From: a virus
Direction: 5' to 3' (one strand)
DNA length: 40,473 nucleotides
Virus record (IMG/VR): IMGVR_UViG_3300022188_000023
Span: 1 to 40,473 of that record
This document shows positions 2,578-40,473 of this stretch, piece after piece (the stretch's first letter is position 1; the number at the start of each line of letters is the position of its first letter). Both the position numbers and the translations under genes were made by a program. Below the pieces are notes generated by a model. The model was given only the letters and a program-made list of their open reading frames with translations. It ran no database searches and had not been told where the DNA came from.

Positions 2578-3138
2578 ATGAAGGTTATTTTTCAAAACGT
2601 AAGACTATCCTACCCCCATCTCTTTACAGAAGATAAGTATGGCAAACATAGCTGCTCTCTGATTCTCGATAAGGTAGATAACAAAAAACAAATCGACGAC
2701 CTAAACGCTGCGGTGAAAGCTGAGATGCTAGAGAAGTTCGGCGCTAAATCCGTAGCGATGGAGACAGCCCTCCGTGCTGATAAGCAGAAATGCTGCATCA
2801 AAGACGGTGATACCTTCCTTACGGGGCAGGGTGAACCTTTAGCTCCCGGATGTGTCGTCGTATCCTGTAATCGCAAACCGACCGCCGCCCCCCTACAACT
2901 TCTCGACGGGAAGAAGGTAGCTATTACCCAAGACGGGATTCTTTACGCAGGGTGCTATGTCAACGCCTCCTTAGAGATATGGGGCCAAACCGGCGAATAC
3001 CAAGGTATCCGTGGCACTCTCAACGGTCTGCAATTTGCTGGAGAAGGTGAACGCTTCGGTGGCGCACCCGTGCCTACCTCGGACGATTTTGAACCTCTCG
3101 AAACAGGAGAGGAAGCCGGCGACTTCAACGATCTGTGA
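2578..3138 (+). CDS. DUF2815 ssDNA-binding-like protein
   Basis: A 186-residue protein that opens 'MKVIFQNVRLSYPHLF', the hallmark of DUF2815, which in phages is paired with DUF2800 nucleases and family A polymerases. The family is regarded as single-stranded-DNA-binding-like (OB-fold). The acidic C-terminal tail ('DDFEPLETGEEAGDFNDL') resembles the protein-interaction tails of SSB and T7 gp2.5. It is expected to coat ssDNA during replication and recombination and to contact partners through that tail. An A-rich leader with AAAGGAAGAC precedes the ATG. The TGA overlaps the ATG of the GapR-like gene. Confidence 0.85.
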   Translation: MKVIFQNVRLSYPHLFTEDKYGKHSCSLILDKVDNKKQIDDLNAAVKAEMLEKFGAKSVAMETALRADKQKCCIKDGDTFLTGQGEPLAPGCVVVSCNRKPTAAPLQLLDGKKVAITQDGILYAGCYVNASLEIWGQTGEYQGIRGTLNGLQFAGEGERFGGAPVPTSDDFEPLETGEEAGDFNDL

Positions 3139-3386
3139 TGTCGAGTTTAGGTCATAACAGTATGTCTAAGGAATTGTTAGAGGACACTCTCGAACGGGTT
3201 GAAACCTTAATATCTGAGCGTAAAGGGATAAACGATACGATCAAATACATTCTCACCGCTGCCGAGGGGCAGGGACTAGATAAGAGAACTATACGTGAAA
3301 TGTTACGTTTGCGGGGAATAGATAAGGAAGTCCGCGACGAACAAGAAGCATTACGCGAACTGTATCTTACGACCTTGGGCATATAA
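3138..3386 (+). CDS. GapR-like nucleoid-associated protein (DUF2312)
   Basis: An 82-residue protein that fits the GapR/UPF0335 (DUF2312) family: an N-terminal helix 'LEDTLERVETLISERKGI', then 'DTIKYILTAAEGQGLDKRT', 'IREMLRLRGID' and the characteristic end 'RDEQEALRELYLTTLG'. Caulobacter GapR is a coiled-coil nucleoid protein that clamps overtwisted AT-rich DNA ahead of replication and stimulates type II topoisomerases. The ATG at 3138 overlaps the DUF2815 stop; an in-frame GTG lies one codon upstream. The phage copy may relieve torsion at its forks or act on the host nucleoid. The family is nearly restricted to Alphaproteobacteria and their phages, so it is the best host clue here. Confidence 0.85.
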   Translation: MSSLGHNSMSKELLEDTLERVETLISERKGINDTIKYILTAAEGQGLDKRTIREMLRLRGIDKEVRDEQEALRELYLTTLGI

Positions 3387-3967: not shown

Positions 3968-6024
3968 AACGGCTATTCCTCGATCTCGAAACCTATTGTG
4001 AAGAGCCTATCACAAGTGGAGCTCACAAGTACGCCGAAAGCGCCGAGATACTTTTATTCTCTTACGCTATCGACGCGGCCCCCGCTAAAGTATGGGACCT
4101 AACAGCGGACAAGAAGATGCCCTCGGACCTCAGAGCGGCGATCAAGGACCGTGACACGCTTTTCATCGCCCATAACAGCGCGTTTGATCGAACGGTGTTG
4201 AAGAGATTTAGCAAGCGTTTTGAGGACGTGAACAACTGGCGGGATACGATGGTGAGAGCTTACGCGCATGGCCTCCCCGGTTCTCTCGCCGTACTTTGTG
4301 GGCTATATAACTTAGGGCAAGAGAAGTCGAAAGCTTCGAATGGTCACCGTTTGATCCATTTATTTTGTAAGCCCCGCCCAAAAAATAACAAATTGAAACG
4401 TGCTACGCGCTTCTCCCATCCTAATGAGTGGAAAGATTTCGTGGACTACGCGAGGCTCGACGTTGTGTCTATGCGTGAGCTTTATTATAAGCTTCCTCGT
4501 CGCAACCACACGAAGCAAGAACTCGTCATATGGAGGCTTGACCAAGGGATCAACGACCGAGGCTTTTTTATTGATACCGAGCTGGTCGAGAGCGCCCTTA
4601 AAATGGTGGACGTTGAGCAGAAACATCTTCGGAAGATGACGAAGGAGAAGACGCAGGGGGCGTTAGAAAGTACCACGCAGCGCGACGCTTTTCTTGCGCA
4701 CATTCTCGAAGTATATAAAGTAGAGTTACCTGACGCAAAGGCGGTAACAATCCAAAAGAGGATTGACGACCCTTCCCTCCCTAACGGTATGAAGGAGCTG
4801 CTACGACTACGTCTAAGCGCGACGACCTCCTCCACGGCGAAATACAAGAAGTTAAGTAAATGCGTATCTTCCGACGGAAGACTGCGCGGGACGTTGCAGT
4901 TTGACGGAGCGGCGCGTACGAGGAGATGGGCGGGACGATTATTCCAGCCTCACAACCTGCCCCGCCCCTCCTTCTCCTCTGAGGAGGTTGAAAGAGGCAT
5001 CGCGGCGTTGAAAGCAGGTTGCGCCGATCTTATCTATGATAACGTCATGGCCGTTACCAGCTCCGCGTTACGAGGATGTGTGGCCGCATCGAAAGGAAGA
5101 AAGTTGGTTGTGTCCGATCTGTCGAATATCGAGGGGCGTATTCAGGCGTGGATTGCGGGGGAGGAATGGAAGCTCCAAGCCTTTCGTGCTTTTGATAATG
5201 GAAGGGGCCACGATCTTTATAAATTGGCTTACGCTAAGATGTTTCGGGTTAACCCCGAAGACATAACTAAAAACCAAAGACAGATAGGTAAGACTTCGGA
5301 ACTCGCGGGGGGATACGGAGGAGGTGTAGGGGCCTTTGTAACCTTTGCTACATCATTTAACATTGACCTCGATCTTTTGGCCGAGGAGGCTTACCCTCTT
5401 ATGCCCTCGCGCATTTTAACCGAAGCAGAAGGTATGTGGGAATGGGCGAAGGCCAGAGAACGTACGTTAGGCATTGCGAAGAAAACCTTTATCGTCATGG
5501 ACAGCTTCAAGAGGCAGTGGCGTGAGGCGCATCCGGCGATATCCTCTTACTGGCAAATTATCGAGGGTGCCGTGCGAAATGCCATTAGTAGGAAGAATAC
5601 CGTATTTTCCGTAAAGGGGATGAAGGTCGAGAGCCAAGGGGCTTGGCTTTATATCCTCATGCCCTCGGGTAGAAGCCTTTGCTATCCTAACCCACGAATT
5701 GACGAGGACGGTCAAATCCTTTTCAAAGGGATGGACCCCTACACACGGAAGTGGGGGCAATTAGGAACGTACGGAGGGAAGATTTTTGAGAACTTATGCC
5801 AATCTCTCGCCCGCGACGTGCTGGCCGACAACATGTGCCTTGTCCAAGACGCGGGGTATGATATTGTTCTCACAGTTCACGATGAGGTCATATGTGACAC
5901 TCCAGATTCCGATGAATTCAACCCCGTGCATTTAAGTGGTTTGCTCTCCCACGTCCCTGATTGGGCGGAAGGGTTACCGTTGGCCGCCGCAGGGTTCGAG
6001 GGCTGCCGTTATAGGAAGGACTGA
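3964..6024 (+). CDS. Family A DNA polymerase with 3'-5' exonuclease
   Basis: The main replicative polymerase, 686 residues. The exonuclease domain has D7-x-E9 (FLDLET), 'FIAHNSAFDRTVL' and the Exo III 'DYARLD'. The polymerase domain has 'RTRRWAGRLFQPHNLPRP', motif A with D385 (VVSDLSNIEGR), motif B (R439 and K443 in RQIGK, then GGYGGGVGAF) and motif C H639-D640-E641. All catalytic residues are present, so it should be active and proofreading. No 5' nuclease domain is present, as usual for phage versions. An upstream ATG at 3937 would add nine basic residues, but the ATG at 3964 begins directly at the conserved 'MKRLFLDLET' and overlaps the preceding stop, so it is preferred. Confidence 0.95.
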   Translation: MKRLFLDLETYCEEPITSGAHKYAESAEILLFSYAIDAAPAKVWDLTADKKMPSDLRAAIKDRDTLFIAHNSAFDRTVLKRFSKRFEDVNNWRDTMVRAYAHGLPGSLAVLCGLYNLGQEKSKASNGHRLIHLFCKPRPKNNKLKRATRFSHPNEWKDFVDYARLDVVSMRELYYKLPRRNHTKQELVIWRLDQGINDRGFFIDTELVESALKMVDVEQKHLRKMTKEKTQGALESTTQRDAFLAHILEVYKVELPDAKAVTIQKRIDDPSLPNGMKELLRLRLSATTSSTAKYKKLSKCVSSDGRLRGTLQFDGAARTRRWAGRLFQPHNLPRPSFSSEEVERGIAALKAGCADLIYDNVMAVTSSALRGCVAASKGRKLVVSDLSNIEGRIQAWIAGEEWKLQAFRAFDNGRGHDLYKLAYAKMFRVNPEDITKNQRQIGKTSELAGGYGGGVGAFVTFATSFNIDLDLLAEEAYPLMPSRILTEAEGMWEWAKARERTLGIAKKTFIVMDSFKRQWREAHPAISSYWQIIEGAVRNAISRKNTVFSVKGMKVESQGAWLYILMPSGRSLCYPNPRIDEDGQILFKGMDPYTRKWGQLGTYGGKIFENLCQSLARDVLADNMCLVQDAGYDIVLTVHDEVICDTPDSDEFNPVHLSGLLSHVPDWAEGLPLAAAGFEGCRYRKD

Positions 6025-6315: not shown

Positions 6316-7718
6316 AGACTCTTGTCCCCCGCCCTTACCAAAAGCTTATCCGTGATCGTATTCTGAAAAAGAAACGCACAGCTATATGGGCTTTTATGGG
6401 GAGCGGAAAAACAGCCGCGACTTTGCTTGCCATCGACCTCCTTAAAATCGTGGAGGATTCGCCCGTGCTTATCGTCGCTCCAAAACTCGTAGCGCAGGTA
6501 GTATGGAGTGATGAGGTAGCCAAGTGGTCGAACTTCCGCCACCTAACCGTTTCTACAGTCGTCGGTGCTCTTTCCACACGTAACCGCGCCCTCGCAAGGG
6601 AAGCGGACATCTACACCGTGAACTTTGAACAACTCCCTTGGCTTGTGGATAAGCTAGGGGATGAGTGGCCTTTCAAAACTGTGGTGGTGGACGAAAGCTC
6701 GAAGTTACGGGGTTTCAGAGGGAGCATACAGACAAGCAAAACAGGGAAAAAGTTCCTTCGTGCGGGCGGAACAAGCAGGGCTAGTGCGCTGGCCAAGGTG
6801 GCCTTCTCAAAAGTGGATAGATTTATCGAACTCACCGGCACCCCCGCACCGAACGGGATCGAAACCCTATGGGGCCAAATGTGGTTTCTCGACGCTGGCC
6901 GCCGTTTGGGGAACACCTTCTCCGCTTTTTCCCGCCGTTGGTTCTCTGTTGGGTGGGATAAATACTCCTTGGTCCCTCACCCCCATGCGGAAGAGGAGGT
7001 AAGGGAAAGGATAGCGGATATAACTTTCGCGCTAAGAGCTGAGGATTGGTTTGATCTGAAAAAGCCCATAGTCACGAATGTAATGGTCGAGCTCCCTCCG
7101 AAAGCGAGAAGGATGTACAGGGAAATGGAAAAGGATTTCTATACGGAGATAAATAAGAGGGGAGTGAACGCCCCCAATGCCGCCGTGAAAGCAGGTAAAT
7201 GCTCTCAGTTAGCCAACGGCGCGGTGTACGTCGAGGAAGCCGGCGGAGCTTTCGAGGAGTTACATACCTCTAAGATCGCCGCCCTTGACCGTATCGTGGA
7301 AGAGGCGGGGGGCATGCCTGTTCTGGTCGTATATCAATTCAAACACGATCTCAAACGGCTATTAAAGGCTTTCCCGAAAGGGAGGAAATTAGACGGTAAA
7401 CCCGCAACGGTGAAGAAGTGGAACTCGGGAGGGCTCCCCCTTATGTTTCTACACGCGGCGAGCGCGGGACACGGGAATAACTTCCAAGACGGCGGCAACA
7501 TTATAGTGTGCTTCGGAATGGATTGGGACTTGGAATTGTACGAGCAGGTACTCGAACGGATCGGGCCTGTGAGGCAATTACAATCAGGGCATGATCGTGC
7601 GGTGTTCGTCTACCATATCCTTGCGAAGGGGACGATAGACGAGCTTAAACTAGAGAGGCTTAGGACGAAGGCTTCCGTGCAAGAGCTGTTGCTGAGAGAA
7701 GCTTCTAAAAGGCTTTAG
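6312..7718 (+). CDS. SNF2-type superfamily 2 helicase/translocase
   Basis: A 468-residue SF2 ATPase of the SNF2-like class usual in phages with DUF2800, DUF2815 and VRR-NUC genes. Seen: Q-like start 'RPYQKLIRDRIL', Walker A 'FMGSGKTAAT' with K33, Walker B 'VVVDESSKLRG' (DESS), motif III 'ELTGTPAPNG', and C-terminal lobe motifs 'FLHAASAGHGNNFQDG' and 'YEQVLERIGPVRQ'. The last uses IGP where SNF2 proteins usually have xHR, a small departure. It probably remodels or translocates on duplex DNA at forks or recombination intermediates. Its last 14 bp overlap the 3' end of the oppositely oriented immunity gene. Confidence 0.9.
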   Translation: MKTLVPRPYQKLIRDRILKKKRTAIWAFMGSGKTAATLLAIDLLKIVEDSPVLIVAPKLVAQVVWSDEVAKWSNFRHLTVSTVVGALSTRNRALAREADIYTVNFEQLPWLVDKLGDEWPFKTVVVDESSKLRGFRGSIQTSKTGKKFLRAGGTSRASALAKVAFSKVDRFIELTGTPAPNGIETLWGQMWFLDAGRRLGNTFSAFSRRWFSVGWDKYSLVPHPHAEEEVRERIADITFALRAEDWFDLKKPIVTNVMVELPPKARRMYREMEKDFYTEINKRGVNAPNAAVKAGKCSQLANGAVYVEEAGGAFEELHTSKIAALDRIVEEAGGMPVLVVYQFKHDLKRLLKAFPKGRKLDGKPATVKKWNSGGLPLMFLHAASAGHGNNFQDGGNIIVCFGMDWDLELYEQVLERIGPVRQLQSGHDRAVFVYHILAKGTIDELKLERLRTKASVQELLLREASKRL

Positions 7719-7911
7719 AGGCTTTAGAGGTAGGGCTGACCGCCCACGCGAGGCAAACAACCCAGCCGAGGACCGACCACCCTAGAAATAAGTTCACCAC
7801 GAGAATGCTATTCGCCGATCGGTGTTTGCGAAGCCTAGCGACAACCAACGGCAAGCAATACACGCAGAACGTGATGATGTAAGCTAGGATTGATGTTGAA
7901 GAGGGGATCAT
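7705..7911 (-). CDS. imm: Imm-type superinfection immunity membrane protein
   Basis: A 68-residue protein with two hydrophobic segments (about residues 8-25 and 39-58). It carries the signature of the superinfection-immunity family typified by T4 Imm: 'RLRKHRSANSILVVNLFLG' then 'WSVLGWVVCLAWAV'. T4 Imm sits in the inner membrane and blocks DNA injection by related phages. The gene runs against its surroundings, is second in a two-gene operon with an ATGA-type overlap (7908-7911) with the HTH gene, and ends inside the 3' end of the helicase gene. Many bacterial proteins of this family have other or unknown roles, so the exclusion function is inferred. Confidence 0.82.
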   Translation of the reverse strand: MIPSSTSILAYIITFCVYCLPLVVARLRKHRSANSILVVNLFLGWSVLGWVVCLAWAVSPTSKASKAF

Positions 7912-8123
7912 GAGTCACCTGTATTTGGGAAAGATGCTACCGCGTCATTTAGGCGGCGTATCGTATCCAGTTGGAGGGGGGATTTCGCATCCTTGGCGCG
8001 ATATAGGGTTGTGGGCGAACATCCTGCGCGGGCGCAAAAGTCCCGTACCTCTATGTTATTTTCACGCATAAACGTAAAAATATGAGTGATAAACGCTTTC
8101 TGATCGAAATCTAGTATGTTCAT
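7908..8123 (-). CDS. Small HTH protein, candidate regulator of the divergent promoters
   Basis: A 71-residue protein whose middle reads as a helix-turn-helix of the XRE/Cro-like sort: 'EVRDFCARAGCSPTTLYRAK' at residues ~25-45 (AGCSPTTLYR as turn and recognition helix), then 'LQLDTIRRLNDAV'. Residues 1-22 form an extra N-terminal helix. There is no room for a dimerisation or cleavage domain, so it would be a Cro-like repressor rather than a CI-like one. It is the first gene of the minus-strand operon with the imm-like gene, and its promoter overlaps that of the pentapeptide genes at a palindrome, the natural place for it to bind. DNA binding and autoregulation are inferred. Confidence 0.72.
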   Translation of the reverse strand: MNILDFDQKAFITHIFTFMRENNIEVRDFCARAGCSPTTLYRAKDAKSPLQLDTIRRLNDAVASFPNTGDS

Positions 8124-8125
8124 GC

Positions 8126-8181
8126 TTGACCTGTGTTACTGTTTAAGGTAACATGTTACCATGAAGAGCAACACAAGTCAA
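8126..8181. promoter_or_regulatory. Divergent overlapping promoters sharing a 14-bp palindromic operator
   Basis: Rightward promoter: TTGACC (8126-8131), 17-bp spacer, TAACAT (8149-8154), predicted start near 8161. Leftward promoter on the other strand: TTGACT (8181 to 8176), 17-bp spacer, TAACAT (8158 to 8153), predicted start near 8146. Both -10 boxes lie in the perfect palindrome GGTAACATGTTACC (8147-8160). A third half-site, TGTTAC, lies at 8134-8139. Two polymerases could not bind together, so the promoters should exclude each other, and a dimer on the palindrome would block both. Confidence 0.8.
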
Positions 8182-8197
8182 CAAAGGGGAATAGAAA

Positions 8198-8836
8198 ATG
8201 ATAAAACAAGAAATCAAAAGCAGGTGGAGTGATAAGGTCCAATTCACCGCTGAAATTGAATGTGACGAACAAGCCTCTTATTCCGTCAAGCAGGGACGGG
8301 CTGCTATGTGGGCTGTTAAAAATAACGCTGACCTGCGTGGTGCGGACCTGAGTGATGCTAACCTGAGTGGTGCTAACCTGAGTGAAGCTGACTTGAGTGG
8401 TGCGGACCTGTGTGATGCTGACCTGCTCGGTGCTAACTTGCGAGGGGCTGACCTGAGTGATGCTAACCTGTGTAAGGCTGACCTGAGGGATGCTGACCTG
8501 AGTGATGCTAACCTGTGTAAGGCCGACCTGAGTGATGCTAACCTGTGTAAGGCTGACCTGAGGGATGCTGACCTGAGTGATGCTAACCTGTGTAAGGCCG
8601 ACCTGAGTGGTGCTAACCTGAGTGATGCTAACCTGTGTAAGGCCGACCTGAGTGGTGCTAACCTGCGGGGTGCGGACCTGAGGGATGCTGACCTGTGTGG
8701 TGCTAGCCTGTGTGGTGCTGACCTGCTCGGGGCCGAGCTGCGTTATGCTGACCTGCGTGGCGCTGACCTGCTCGGTGCGGACCTGAGTGGTTCTTGGTTC
8801 AACAGGACACAGGGCTGGAAGATCGTGAAAGTTTAA
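8198..8836 (+). CDS. Pentapeptide-repeat protein A (212 aa)
   Basis: Residues 1-45 form a non-repeat head ('RWSDKVQFTAEIECD', 'VKQGRAAMWAVKNNADL'). Residues ~44-196 are about 30 consecutive A(D/N)LXX units, which fold as a right-handed quadrilateral beta-helix. The tail is 'SGSWFNRTQGWKIVKV'. Qnr and MfpA, built from such repeats, mimic duplex DNA and bind gyrase, but most phage members have no known role. The start codon is fixed by AAAGGGGAATAG upstream and by agreement with the paralogue 3' of it. It is the first gene from the divergent promoter. The bottom-strand open frame here is an artefact of the 15-bp codon repeat. Confidence 0.9.
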   Translation: MIKQEIKSRWSDKVQFTAEIECDEQASYSVKQGRAAMWAVKNNADLRGADLSDANLSGANLSEADLSGADLCDADLLGANLRGADLSDANLCKADLRDADLSDANLCKADLSDANLCKADLRDADLSDANLCKADLSGANLSDANLCKADLSGANLRGADLRDADLCGASLCGADLLGAELRYADLRGADLLGADLSGSWFNRTQGWKIVKV

Positions 8837-9380
8837 CAAAAGGAATAGAACCCATGGAAAAGTTTGAAGTAAAAAACAGGTGGAGTGATAAGGTCCAATT
8901 CACCGCTGAAATTGAATGTGACAAAAACACAACACTGCCTGTCAAGCAGGGACGGGCTGTTAGGTGGGCTGTTAAAAATAACGCTGACCTGCTCGGTGCG
9001 GACCTGAGTGGTGCTAACCTGCGTGATGCTGACCTGCGAGATGCTGACCTGCGTGGTGCGGACCTGAGTGATGCGGACCTGCTCGGTGCGGACCTGTGTG
9101 GTGCTGACATGAGGGGTGCGGACCTGAGGGATGCTAACCTGCGCGGTGCTGACCTGCTCGGTGCGGACCTGAGTGGTGCTAACCTGCTCGGTGCGGACCT
9201 GAGTGGTGCGGACCTGAGTGGTGCTAACCTGCTCGGTGCGGACCTGTGTGATGCTAACCTGCTCGGTGCGGACCTGAGTGGTGCTAACCTGTGTAAGGCC
9301 GACCTGAGTGGGGCTGAGCTGTATGATGCTGACCTGAGTGGGGTTATCCTGTGCGGTGCTGACCTGAGTGGTTCTTGGTT
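8330..9380 (+). repeat. 15-bp codon repeats of the pentapeptide genes
   Basis: Degenerate 15-bp units of the form GCTGACCTG plus six variable bases run through both genes, interrupted at 8788-8985 by the tail of A and head of B. Longer identical blocks recur within gene A, for example the run encoding 'SDANLCKADL', showing recent within-gene duplication. The codon choice for the invariant Leu (CTG) is almost uniform. Confidence 0.9.
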
Positions 9381-9417
9381 CAAAAGGACACAGGACTGGA
9401 AGATCGTTAAGGCTTAA
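8854..9417 (+). CDS. Pentapeptide-repeat protein B (187 aa), paralogue of A
   Basis: The head is nearly identical to that of protein A ('RWSDKVQFTAEIECD', 'KQGRAVRWAVKNNADL') and so is the tail ('SGSWFKRTQDWKIVKA'), with about 25 A(D/N)LXX units between, some five fewer than in A. This is a tandem duplication followed by gain or loss of whole repeat units. The ATG at 8854 follows AAAAGGAATAG and gives a head that aligns with A; an in-frame ATG at 8794 inside the previous gene is rejected. Unequal shaft lengths on identical ends could give two different sized DNA mimics or a hetero-oligomer; this is inference. Confidence 0.9.
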   Translation: MEKFEVKNRWSDKVQFTAEIECDKNTTLPVKQGRAVRWAVKNNADLLGADLSGANLRDADLRDADLRGADLSDADLLGADLCGADMRGADLRDANLRGADLLGADLSGANLLGADLSGADLSGANLLGADLCDANLLGADLSGANLCKADLSGAELYDADLSGVILCGADLSGSWFKRTQDWKIVKA

Positions 9418-9432
9418 CTGACGGGGAGAGCG

Positions 9433-9681
9433 ATGACACGAGGAACATTACAGGAAGGCGAACCACACCCTGCGGCAATGGATGCGTTGGGGTTTGTTAG
9501 GAGCATTCCATTTGAAAAGCAGTGCTTACTTCAAGGAGCCCTTTCCTCCTGCGCAATAGAGGGGAACCGGATGGCTGAAATATGTAGCGAAACCTTTCGT
9601 AGAGTTGTTGAAAATAAACCAGTTAGTGACAGGTACATTCTTGGGTTGGCATGGTATTTAAAAAACATTGGAGGAGAGTAG
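9433..9681 (+). CDS. Hypothetical early protein (82 aa)
   Basis: An 82-residue soluble protein that I cannot place in a family. The ATG has GGGGAGAG upstream, and the stop (TAG, 9679-9681) abuts the next ATG at 9682. Helical character is likely in residues 22-55 ('VRSIPFEKQCLLQGALSS') and at the C-terminus. Probably co-transcribed with the pentapeptide genes, 15 bp upstream. Confidence 0.65.
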   Translation: MTRGTLQEGEPHPAAMDALGFVRSIPFEKQCLLQGALSSCAIEGNRMAEICSETFRRVVENKPVSDRYILGLAWYLKNIGGE

Positions 9682-10137
9682 ATGACCGACAAAAACCAAC
9701 AACAAAAGATTGAGCTGGTTAGAGAAGCGTTCGGATGCGCTAGGGAGTTTGACCATTTTATAGCTAATAAAGCAGAAAGAGCCTTCGAGTCCCTCCTCCC
9801 TAATCTGTTGCCAGAAAGACCAGTAATACACGAGGAGCTTTTAAGCCGGTTTACTGAAATGTGTGATACGATGGAAACCATACGCGCTAAACAAGCCACC
9901 TCTGACAGGATTGTGTGGGAGGCAGATAAAATTATAGATGCCTTATCTGATTTTCGTTTTCATGCTGGAAACAATAAAATTGCAAAAATAAATAACGCTA
10001 AAGTCATCAAACTTCCTAAATGCGAAGGTGGTGAAAATGCTGTTTATGCAATGTGTTTTGAAAAACTGGCAGAAGCTATGTATGAATACCAAAAAGCCCG
10101 TGAGCACTTGGAAGGGAAAGAGGATGACAACAGATAA
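9682..10137 (+). CDS. Hypothetical helical early protein (151 aa)
   Basis: A 151-residue protein, largely alpha-helical by composition, with charged segments such as 'KIELVREAFGCAREFDHFI' and a C-terminal 'KLAEAMYEYQKAREHLEG'. It starts directly after the preceding stop with GGAGGAGAG as ribosome site. Codon use in this stretch is richer in A and T than in the replication genes, suggesting separate acquisition. Function unknown. Confidence 0.65.
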   Translation: MTDKNQQQKIELVREAFGCAREFDHFIANKAERAFESLLPNLLPERPVIHEELLSRFTEMCDTMETIRAKQATSDRIVWEADKIIDALSDFRFHAGNNKIAKINNAKVIKLPKCEGGENAVYAMCFEKLAEAMYEYQKAREHLEGKEDDNR

Positions 10138-13079: not shown

Positions 13080-16000
13080 CTAAGATAAAGTGAATTGCCT
13101 AATAACGTCAGAAATACTATCATTACAATACATTTTATTCCCGTTGCTATTAAACTCTAAGCCGAACCCGGCGTTCGTACTTATAAGATACTCTTTACTA
13201 TCATAGGACGCTGTCGGCATGTCCCATGCAGTGGGTAAAGAGTATTGATATACTGTCATACCCGTCCCAGATACCCAAGCCATAACGAAAACCTTCGTTC
13301 CGTCATCATTCATAAAGATACCACGCGGAGCAACAGTTGTTTGCGGTGTCGGATCAAATCCGTTGGTATAGCTGATTGTTGAAATGTCCCAAGGCGTTGA
13401 CAGCGTATAGTGTCGTACCCCGTCCGTGTTACCGTTCACAACAATCATATGAGACCCTGTAGGATCGACGTACATATTATTAGCGCCCCATACGAGGTCT
13501 ATACCCGAAGATACACTGTCGTACGACGCTGTGCTTATATCCCACGCGGTTGATAGAGAGAATTGAAAAGCCCTTCCGCTCCCCGCAATTATAAGACGGG
13601 TACCATCAGTCCTAAAGACTAGCCCTTTTACAGAACTGTCCTGCGCACTTACGTCTAAACTCTTACTATCATAAGATGCGGAGGTCACGTCATAGTTTGT
13701 CGACAAGGAATACTGATATATCGTATCTGTCGTGTTGTCAGAAATATATATTTTATCGCCCGCCGGGCTCATTAACGTGTCAAGCCCCGCAACAACCTGA
13801 GCAGAGATATCTTTTACACCGTTAGTAGACACGTTGCCAATATCCCAAACCCCTATACTCTCGCTGTCCCCTGCACCAGAAACCGAGGATACGCCAACGG
13901 CGCTACCTACGCTCGAAATGTAAACAACTAACTTACCCTCAAGGCTTGAGGAGCCTTCTAAAGCTCCTACGCTCGAAAGGTAAACAGCTACATTACCCTC
14001 AAGGCTTGAGGAGCCTTCTAAAGCTCCTACGCTCGAAATGTAAACAGCTACCTTACCCTCAAGGCTTGAGGAGCCTTCTAAAGCTCCTACGCTCTCGCCG
14101 GCGACAAAGAGGCCCCCAACTCCTGATAAATCGGCTCCACCCTCTGCTAAACCGATACCCTCTCTGAAAACACTGATACTACTAACCCCTAATAAATTAG
14201 AGCTGCTCTCCGCTAAACCGACGCCCTCGATATCAACCTCTATAGGGTACCCTGCTAAATCAAAGGTAGCAACCTGCACCTCCCCGCCCATTAAAATATG
14301 CCCGTTAGCGCTTGGGTGACACGTGTCATGCGCAGCATAGTTTGGAGTCCCATCAACAGCCCATTTAGTTTTTTCTACCCCTTTAACGCTATCCGCTTCA
14401 ATGAGATAGTCAAGAATACCTTCTATGAGTTTACCGTCTAGCCACGTGTTCATTTGGTCGCCGTTGCCACCAACCCCCCAACTTACTGAGCATGTTTGAT
14501 TGGCCTCCGTTACGTATGAATCAGTTGATAAGGCGTGTGGTGTTAGCTTTGTCCTTACAATTTTCTCTATGTCCCCCGCACGAAGCGACTGCCAAATTAA
14601 TTGTAGGTTTGTTTGGGTGTGCGAAACACCCCACAAATTAGCGCCCAGCGCTTCAACAGCGTAATTAGCGTACTTTAGGAAATCCTTCCAATACGTGTTT
14701 GCGCCGACAAAAGTGTCGGACAACGCCCCGCTAGAGGATAGATTTAACGAAGGGATAGAAAGGGTTTTACTGTCCGCTGTCATACTGCGTGCAAAAAAGC
14801 CGCCTCCGTAATACCCGTTATCATCGCTGGCGGCGTATCCAAGGGAGATACTATCCCCAACACAGACGAAAGAGGGTTTCGTATCCTCGGAAGGTCTTCC
14901 CAATAGGATAGCCTTGTATCCGTGGTCTCTCGATACAGGAGCCGAGCCCGAATAGGTGAACGCGCCCGGCTCATCGACGCTAGACATGGTTGTCGAAGCG
15001 CCGTACCAAAGTATTTGGCCGTTACTAGTCGAGATATCGTCCTTATCTGAAAAAGGGATAGTGTCGGAAGACAAGGCTACAGACACTATCATTTTAATAT
15101 GATACTTCTCGTTTGCAGAAAACTTAACAACGCCTAACGACGAGGGCAATATATCGTCACTATTTATGTCGTAATCTGTTGTAGATAATATTTTACTTCG
15201 ATTTCCTCCAAAAGTAATTTGTGTGGTTTCCGTCCCCTCTTCGTTTTCTAGGGCGGCGGACTCAATCGTTATTTGATTATCCCCATCAGCCTGTCCACTA
15301 TAAGCTAAAATTACATTGCTGACATTCACATTTAAAACTGTCGCGTCATTGCTAATCACATACCCTTGATTGGTAGCTTGGCTTCCCAAAGCTTGACTTT
15401 CAGAATCAGTTAATACTGTCTGGTTAGCGGCTATGACCTTTAGCGACGTAACTGATTCTGCTACAATGGTCTTAATGTTGGCCCGGTTTAAATCATTAGG
15501 AACCGTATAAGCCCCTACGGTAACAACAACGTCTTGTGTGCTGTCGTCATCGAAGGTGTATCTAAGCCCTGTACAAGCCAAGGGAATATCAAATGAAAGC
15601 TGGTCCACGGCGCGGCTTGCGGCAGCGGCCCCTGTAACTATAAATGCGCTACACTCCGCGCCTTCTTCAACTTGAGCCGAAAGACAAATTGCCGTTTCTC
15701 CTGAAACAGTAGAATCTGGACCGACAGAAAAGGAGTGGTACCCTGTACTGTCTGGAAGGAACGTCCCTGATATAAAGAATGTATCGTCAGACAGTTTTAC
15801 TTGCTTAGTTATGGTCAGCGCGCCAGCGCCGTTTTGACTTACCGAAAGAGCACCAACGGCGCCTTTGATTATGCTTTCACTTGGGGAATATCGGAACGCA
15901 ATCCTAGCTCTGCCCGAAGTCCCTTCACGATAGTACGCGCACCAAGATAAAGTGACCGCAGAAGTGGCATAGAAATCATCAGGTGGGCTAGCGCGGTGCC

Positions 16001-16358
16001 ACGTTTCGCCCCCACTTGACACAACTGCACCATTATCAAATAGGCTTAACGCTGTCTCGCTATATTCAGAGAGCGCAGCCCCAATGCCTGTCCATTCACT
16101 AAATATAGACTTAGAATAAATTAATTTATTCTCACGCTGCTCTTCATAAAGCAGGCCAAGCGCATCTCCTGAAACAGGATCATAGTTAAACCGCGCCACG
16201 TCATCCGTGACAGCAACAAGCACACCGCTGGCATTGAAGTACGTACCAGCACTAACGCGTGTGAAGGTTGTGCCGCTCGGCAGCAAGCCCTCCGTAAAGT
16301 TGTAGTCTATTAAAAGACTATCATCTCTGCGAAAGAGGAGGAGAAGCGAACTGCTCAT
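13080..16358 (-). CDS. Large tail fibre with SGNH esterase domain and beta-propeller-like C-terminus
   Basis: A 1092-residue receptor-binding or depolymerase-type protein. Residues 1-~270 start 'LLIDYNFTEGLLPSG' and look like a phage attachment and carbohydrate-binding region. The middle holds an SGNH hydrolase: block I 'VCVGDSISLGYA' with Ser503, and block V 'HDTCHPSANGH' with D678 and H681. Residues ~757-816 are three 20-residue VGALEGSSSLEG-type linker repeats. Residues ~836-1092 repeat 'W-D-I/V...AS-YDSK...' and 'G-T-K-V/I-F/Y' blades, as in a beta-propeller. A deacetylating or de-esterifying action on host surface glycan is inferred. The ATG follows directly on an in-frame TAA. Confidence 0.85.
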   Translation of the reverse strand: MSSSLLLLFRRDDSLLIDYNFTEGLLPSGTTFTRVSAGTYFNASGVLVAVTDDVARFNYDPVSGDALGLLYEEQRENKLIYSKSIFSEWTGIGAALSEYSETALSLFDNGAVVSSGGETWHRASPPDDFYATSAVTLSWCAYYREGTSGRARIAFRYSPSESIIKGAVGALSVSQNGAGALTITKQVKLSDDTFFISGTFLPDSTGYHSFSVGPDSTVSGETAICLSAQVEEGAECSAFIVTGAAAASRAVDQLSFDIPLACTGLRYTFDDDSTQDVVVTVGAYTVPNDLNRANIKTIVAESVTSLKVIAANQTVLTDSESQALGSQATNQGYVISNDATVLNVNVSNVILAYSGQADGDNQITIESAALENEEGTETTQITFGGNRSKILSTTDYDINSDDILPSSLGVVKFSANEKYHIKMIVSVALSSDTIPFSDKDDISTSNGQILWYGASTTMSSVDEPGAFTYSGSAPVSRDHGYKAILLGRPSEDTKPSFVCVGDSISLGYAASDDNGYYGGGFFARSMTADSKTLSIPSLNLSSSGALSDTFVGANTYWKDFLKYANYAVEALGANLWGVSHTQTNLQLIWQSLRAGDIEKIVRTKLTPHALSTDSYVTEANQTCSVSWGVGGNGDQMNTWLDGKLIEGILDYLIEADSVKGVEKTKWAVDGTPNYAAHDTCHPSANGHILMGGEVQVATFDLAGYPIEVDIEGVGLAESSSNLLGVSSISVFREGIGLAEGGADLSGVGGLFVAGESVGALEGSSSLEGKVAVYISSVGALEGSSSLEGNVAVYLSSVGALEGSSSLEGKLVVYISSVGSAVGVSSVSGAGDSESIGVWDIGNVSTNGVKDISAQVVAGLDTLMSPAGDKIYISDNTTDTIYQYSLSTNYDVTSASYDSKSLDVSAQDSSVKGLVFRTDGTRLIIAGSGRAFQFSLSTAWDISTASYDSVSSGIDLVWGANNMYVDPTGSHMIVVNGNTDGVRHYTLSTPWDISTISYTNGFDPTPQTTVAPRGIFMNDDGTKVFVMAWVSGTGMTVYQYSLPTAWDMPTASYDSKEYLISTNAGFGLEFNSNGNKMYCNDSISDVIRQFTLS
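13911..14090 (-). repeat. Three 60-bp tandem repeats in the fibre gene
   Basis: Three consecutive 60-bp units, differing by only a few bases, encode VGALEGSSSLEG followed by eight mostly aliphatic residues. Each holds the inverted repeat CTCAAG-G-CTTGAG. They form an in-frame expandable linker between the esterase and the propeller-like domain. Confidence 0.9.
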
Positions 16359-40091: not shown

Positions 40092-40473
40092 CTTTGGCGT
40101 GAACGGCTAGAGCCACGCTTTGGCGTGAACGGCTAGAATCACGCTTTGGCGTGAACGGCTAAAGGCACGCTTTGGCGTGAACGGCTAGAATCACGCTTTG
40201 GCGTGAACGGCTAAAGGCACGCTTTGGCGTGAACGGCTAAAGGCACGCTTTGGCGTGAACGGCTAAAGGCACGCTTTGGCGTGAACGGCTAAAGGCACGC
40301 TTTGGCGTGAACGGCTAAAGGCACGCTTTGGCGTGAACGGCTAGAATCACGCTTTGGCGTGAACGGCTAAAGGCACGCTTTGGCGTGAACGGCTAGAATC
40401 ACGCTTTGGCGTGAACGGCTAAAGGCACGCTTTGGCGTGAACGGCTAAAGGCACGCTTTGGCGTGAACGGCTA
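40092..40473 (+). repeat. 26-bp iteron-like tandem array, about 14.7 copies
   Basis: From 40092 to the window edge a 26-bp unit recurs: 21 constant bases (ACG + CTTTGGCGTGAACGGCTA) and a 5-bp segment that is GAGCC once (first copy), GAATC four times or AAGGC nine times. Each unit holds CACGC-TTTG-GCGTG, a perfect 5-bp inverted repeat. Each unit has stops on both strands in a period that is not a multiple of three, so it cannot encode protein. Form and regularity fit iterons of a replication origin, a partition site or a multi-operator array. The true end lies outside the window. Confidence 0.9.

Follow-up and report, generated by a model that had tools for sequence, protein, structure and literature searches.

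A compact predicted bidirectional promoter, probably overlaid on two abutting operators, between divergent gene clusters of a siphovirus-type genome

The window analysed here is an entire virus record of 40,473 bases with siphovirus-type genes for tail, portal, and terminase. Both termini of the record consist of tandem repeats (positions 1-127, 8.5 copies of a 15-bp unit; positions 40092-40473, 14.7 copies of a 26-bp unit), which may be points at which the assembly stopped. A further tandem repeat at 13906-14094, with 3.2 copies of a 60-bp unit and 95% matches, lies within a minus-strand ORF of 1092 aa (13080-16358). A phage-encoded GapR-like DNA-binding protein (3135-3386; PF10073, 5.2e-17), together with pentapeptide relatives from Caulobacter and Rhizobium, hints at an alphaproteobacterial host, whereas the relatives of the DNA polymerase and of the helicase point away from it. 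Known defence families gave no match. The locus considered below comprises two leftward and four rightward genes:

7705..7911, minus strand: 68-aa Imm_superinfect (PF14373) protein, whose start overlaps the stop of the HTH gene (ATGA)
7908..8123, minus strand: 71-aa XRE/Cro-fold HTH protein, putative autorepressor
8198..8836, plus strand: pentapeptide-repeat protein, 212 aa
8854..9417, plus strand: pentapeptide-repeat protein, 187 aa, a paralogue of the preceding gene product (71% identical in aligned columns)
9433..9681, plus strand: 82-aa ORF without a recognised domain; all-helical low-confidence model, no HTH match
9682..10137, plus strand: 151-aa ORF without a recognised domain

The leftward genes were originally predicted to encode an HTH protein and an Imm-type immunity protein, and the profile and structure comparisons bear this out. 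The HTH ORF scores 20.8 bits against the Cro/C1-type profile HTH_26 of Pfam, under the cut-off of 22. Its AF2 model, obtained from a single sequence with Met1 absent, contains four helices at a pLDDT of 86.6. The closest solved folds found by Foldseek are those of the XRE proteins HipB, C.BclI, C.Esp1396I, and ClgR, at a probability of 1.00 and with no match at E<=0.001. A Cro/C1-type HTH fold is thus predicted with confidence. The Imm ORF is a clear match to PF14373 (59.3 bits, curated cut-off 27.9), a family common in phages. Since its ATG overlaps the stop codon of the HTH gene, the two genes probably form one translationally coupled unit. The Imm gene also shares a 14-bp tail-to-tail overlap (7705-7718) with a gene for an SNF2-family helicase. 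On the rightward side, the gene calls agree with the two pentapeptide-repeat genes described before. A second regulator was recognised in this cluster neither by Pfam, PHROGs, and NCBIfam nor, for the 82-aa ORF, by fold (low-confidence model, pLDDT 73, resembling no HTH protein); the lack of a profile match is not proof that the cluster has no regulator.

A 56-bp element falls exactly within the gap separating the divergent genes and contains the following overlapping features:

8126..8181, no strand: imperfect inverted repeat of 56 bp with 23 of 28 positions paired per arm, carrying both promoters and both putative operators
8147..8160, no strand: perfect 14-bp palindrome GGTAACATGTTACC, read as the junction of O1 and O2
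8126..8154, plus strand: predicted rightward promoter TTGACC-17-TAACAT, by consensus match only (9/12); start at about 8161
8153..8181, minus strand: predicted leftward promoter TTGACT-17-TAACAT, by consensus match only (9/12); start at about 8143-8146
8134..8153, no strand: putative operator O1, TGTTAC-N8-GTAACA, an exact dyad
8154..8173, no strand: putative operator O2, TGTTAC-N8-GCAACA, with one mismatch

The promoter geometry given in the original prediction is exact in its coordinates, hexamers, and 17-17 spacing. On the plus strand, TTGACC (8126-8131) and TAACAT (8149-8154) are separated by a 17-bp spacer, and the same distance separates TTGACT (8181-8176) and TAACAT (8158-8153) on the minus strand. 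The two units are mirror images around 8153.5. Their -10 boxes share only 2 bp, and GGTAACATGTTACC encloses the pair. A TG precedes the -10 box of the leftward promoter only. We infer the start sites by placing them seven bases past each -10 box, at about 8161 on the plus strand and about 8146 on the minus strand, and the leaders to either ATG would be short. Both predicted promoters fall in the space that separates the HTH gene from the divergent pentapeptide genes, and they overlap almost completely around the palindrome. Such full overlap means that two polymerases could not sit there simultaneously, so that joint occupancy would be sterically excluded, as had been proposed. This mutual exclusion is a generic property of bidirectional promoters.

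The promoter matches alone prove nothing, as they occur at chance frequency. A consensus scan of positions 6500-10000 returned two promoter-like sites, which are just this pair, and shuffled sequences give 2.3; opposed pairs with overlapping -10 boxes arise about 1.1 times per shuffled window. The hexamers are weak (9/12), and the consensus may not be that of the host. The non-random feature is the larger symmetry, not the promoter pair by itself. The inverted repeat is 82% symmetric over all 56 bp and scores higher than any other gapless palindrome of the window (13, against maxima of 7-12 in 30 shuffles); with this number of shuffles, the score alone amounts at best to a few percent per window. 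A complete scan of 429 kb of related loci revealed no gapless palindrome scoring at least 12.

A read-through transcript crossing the element would fold as a hairpin (-22.5 kcal/mol, z -3.4); no U-run follows it, and the terminator reading was therefore set aside. The leaders from the predicted starts carry one arm only and are unstructured, which led to the RNA-element reading being set aside as well and suggests that the palindrome should act as DNA. A terminator-like site was looked for on the plus strand between the helicase and pentapeptide genes, and none was found; without such a site, early read-through could run antisense to the HTH-Imm operon.

The element contains a second level of order, absent from the original prediction. 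O1 and O2 are 20-bp dyads that abut at the centre of the palindrome, so that TGTTAC recurs as a direct repeat at a distance of 20 bp. This repetition does not follow from the mirror symmetry and constitutes a separate observation. In a search framed after the dyads had already been seen, which accepted every hexamer, gaps of 2-12, and no more than one mismatch, this is the sole place in the window where two dyads abut in tandem, and none of 40 shuffles contains such a pair. For this half-site and gaps of 0-14, only N8 yields two sites with at most one mismatch, and four half-sites inside 40 bp occur only at this place. When up to three mismatches are allowed, TGTTAC-N8-GTAACA gives 28 matches against 13.9 expected; this excess was rejected as an N8-specific signal because N2 gives 29. 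The original prediction built the switch around the palindrome. The palindrome is real, and the separate 20-bp repetition leads us to read it as a junction, the likelier unit being two tandem 20-bp dyads with four TGTTAC-like half-sites.

At both predicted promoters, including the leftward one of the HTH gene, the dyads overlie the spacer and the start site. Counted from the predicted starts, O1 is centred (8143.5) near -17.5 for the rightward promoter and near +2.5 for the leftward one, and for O2 the order is reversed. Activators of the lambda CI type act from a position near -42. By their coordinates, neither O1 nor O2 occupies an activating position (about -42) for either promoter.

The reading that we favour, with a probability of roughly two in three, is that a bidirectional promoter shares its DNA with two abutting operators for the 71-aa XRE/Cro protein, which would be subject to negative autoregulation. 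One dimer of the HTH protein would bind O1 (8134-8153) and another O2 (8154-8173). Their centres are 20 bp apart, which is about two helical turns, and the dimers would therefore lie on the same face of the DNA, possibly binding cooperatively. Each operator covers one promoter at its spacer and the other at its start, so either one, when bound, would repress both. In such a scheme, the HTH-Imm and pentapeptide operons would both be on until the HTH protein builds up, and would then be jointly held down. The outcome would be a small accessory cassette under negative autoregulation. The earlier proposal that one protein could shut both sides is supported by the repressing positions of both dyads at both promoters, provided that they are bound. 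The small Cro-like protein is likewise the natural choice of ligand, as had been suggested, and the ligand could instead be a different phage or host protein. Similar logic is known from the bidirectional acrA/acrR promoter, both directions of which are shut by AcrR (PMC12825309).

In a less elaborate alternative, a dimer of the HTH protein recognises the central 14-bp palindrome only, with the outer half-sites being incidental and repression still shared. The perfect symmetry of these 14 bp speaks for it, as does their GGTA-N6-TACC content, which matches the half-site spacing of 434-type operators. The outer TGTTAC repeats, placed exactly 20 bp to either side, form the tandem dyads not obtained in any of the 40 shuffles, and this makes a single operator unlikely. 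The palindrome might also be the site of another protein, such as a host factor, a different regulator of the phage, or a protein of replication, partition, or recombination, with the HTH protein acting elsewhere. We infer the binding of the HTH protein to the element, and the phage encodes the GapR-like DNA-binding protein as well. The element, however, lies on the HTH gene's own promoter region, which is the usual location for an autorepressor site, and no integrase was recognised among the phage ORFs scanned with Pfam and PHROGs; another ligand with the HTH protein acting elsewhere is accordingly rather improbable.

The original prediction went further and saw in the locus a switch, bistable or dosage-sensing, with a single promoter active at any time and the choice, once made, being fixed. 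The near-complete promoter overlap, with its presumed steric exclusion, and the presence of a Cro-like protein encoded in the same operon as an Imm-family gene are consistent with this idea. Against it, both operators are positioned to repress both promoters and none is placed for activation, and the rightward genes yielded no recognised second regulator, whereas the bistability of CP-933P has been attributed to two competing regulators (PMC8630535). At the five E. coli bidirectional promoters that were tested, competition between polymerases was negligible at basal activity, which was too low for it, and interference occurred once one direction was substantially activated (PMC12825309). A lone protein that represses both promoters, including its own, has a decreasing production function and thus a single steady state, so that bistability would require something further. 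We therefore regard the switch as rather improbable too. Still less probable is a stand-alone module of the XRE protein, the Imm protein, and the pentapeptide pair, in which polymerase exclusion and shared repression couple immunity to the divergent operon and give two infection outcomes.

Relatives of the module were sought in several collections, which may omit records very near to the genome of the window. The HTH protein had no match in viral_contigs or phages, nor in one prophage-bearing genome, and in plasmids it matched over 27 residues only; a close relative of the Imm protein was not found in viral_contigs. The helicase has relatives in 43 viral loci (37-54% identity) and in one Parasutterella genome. 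No like module was seen among the minus-strand ORFs downstream of the helicase relatives in those viral loci shown in a listing of viral loci only, nor in a palindrome scan of the downstream regions of all viral loci and the Parasutterella locus. Since these searches yielded no second copy of the module, a lack of the palindrome at other loci is uninformative about its conservation. In Caulobacter phages with relatives of the pentapeptide N-terminus, the gene begins 3 bp after that for DNA polymerase I, which leaves no room for such a site. The operator pattern was found in 21 stretches of viral_contigs, seemingly one recurring element in low-GC contigs with primase/helicase-type genes; these were judged unrelated. 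This recurring element, TGTTACCGCTAACGGTAACATGTTACCG (loci L046-L066, e.g., L062:2273-2298 and 3971-3996), resembles two adjacent dyads and is sometimes present twice, about 1.7 kb apart, near the phage primase/helicase-type genes.

The arrangement looks like a new, compactly built instance of known categories. In bacterial bidirectional promoters, described by Warman, Grainger and colleagues (PMC12825309, PMC10268837), opposed starts lie within 7-25 bp and the -10 elements overlap. Here the predicted -10 boxes overlap as well, the predicted starts are about 15-18 bp apart, and, as at acrA/acrR, a self-encoded repressor could close both directions. The overlap of only 2 bp departs from the reciprocal -11A/-7T of the commonest (18-bp) class; the class also includes other spacings (PMC12825309). 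In contrast to those promoters, the symmetry extends here through the -35 boxes and the operators. HipB, which binds cooperatively at TATCC-N8-GGATA sites (PMC3376134), provides a precedent for an N8 half-site plan in a small XRE protein with several operators at its own promoter. The half-site differs in the phage element, the dyads abut directly, and the neighbour is an Imm-family gene, with no HipA-like partner recognised. The C proteins of restriction-modification systems (C.Esp1396I, C.Csp231I; PMC4321490) share the small XRE-fold dimer and two neighbouring dyad sites, whereas no adjoining restriction-modification genes and no operator in an activating position were recognised here.

Overlapping divergent promoters beside a regulator gene, with an operator of that regulator on top, are also known from Pc/Pr of pLS20 and its regulator RcoLS20; that system goes further, with another operator at a distance, looping of the DNA, and an activated Pr, of which there is no sign here (PMC4207663). 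The lambdoid cI/cro region and paaR2/ydaS of CP-933P (PMC8630535) likewise combine a Cro-like HTH protein with operators common to divergent operons, but only one regulator was recognised in the phage locus, which leaves no basis for a toggle. A limited literature survey on mutually exclusive overlapping phage promoters matched only restriction-modification work, and no priority is claimed.

If the proposed reading is right, two promoters and two repressor sites are merged within 56 bp in an unusually compact form, and one small protein would limit both flanks of an accessory cassette that includes an Imm-family gene. The element also offers a near-symmetric natural template for studying how polymerases compete, and how repression is shared, at promoters of this bidirectional kind.
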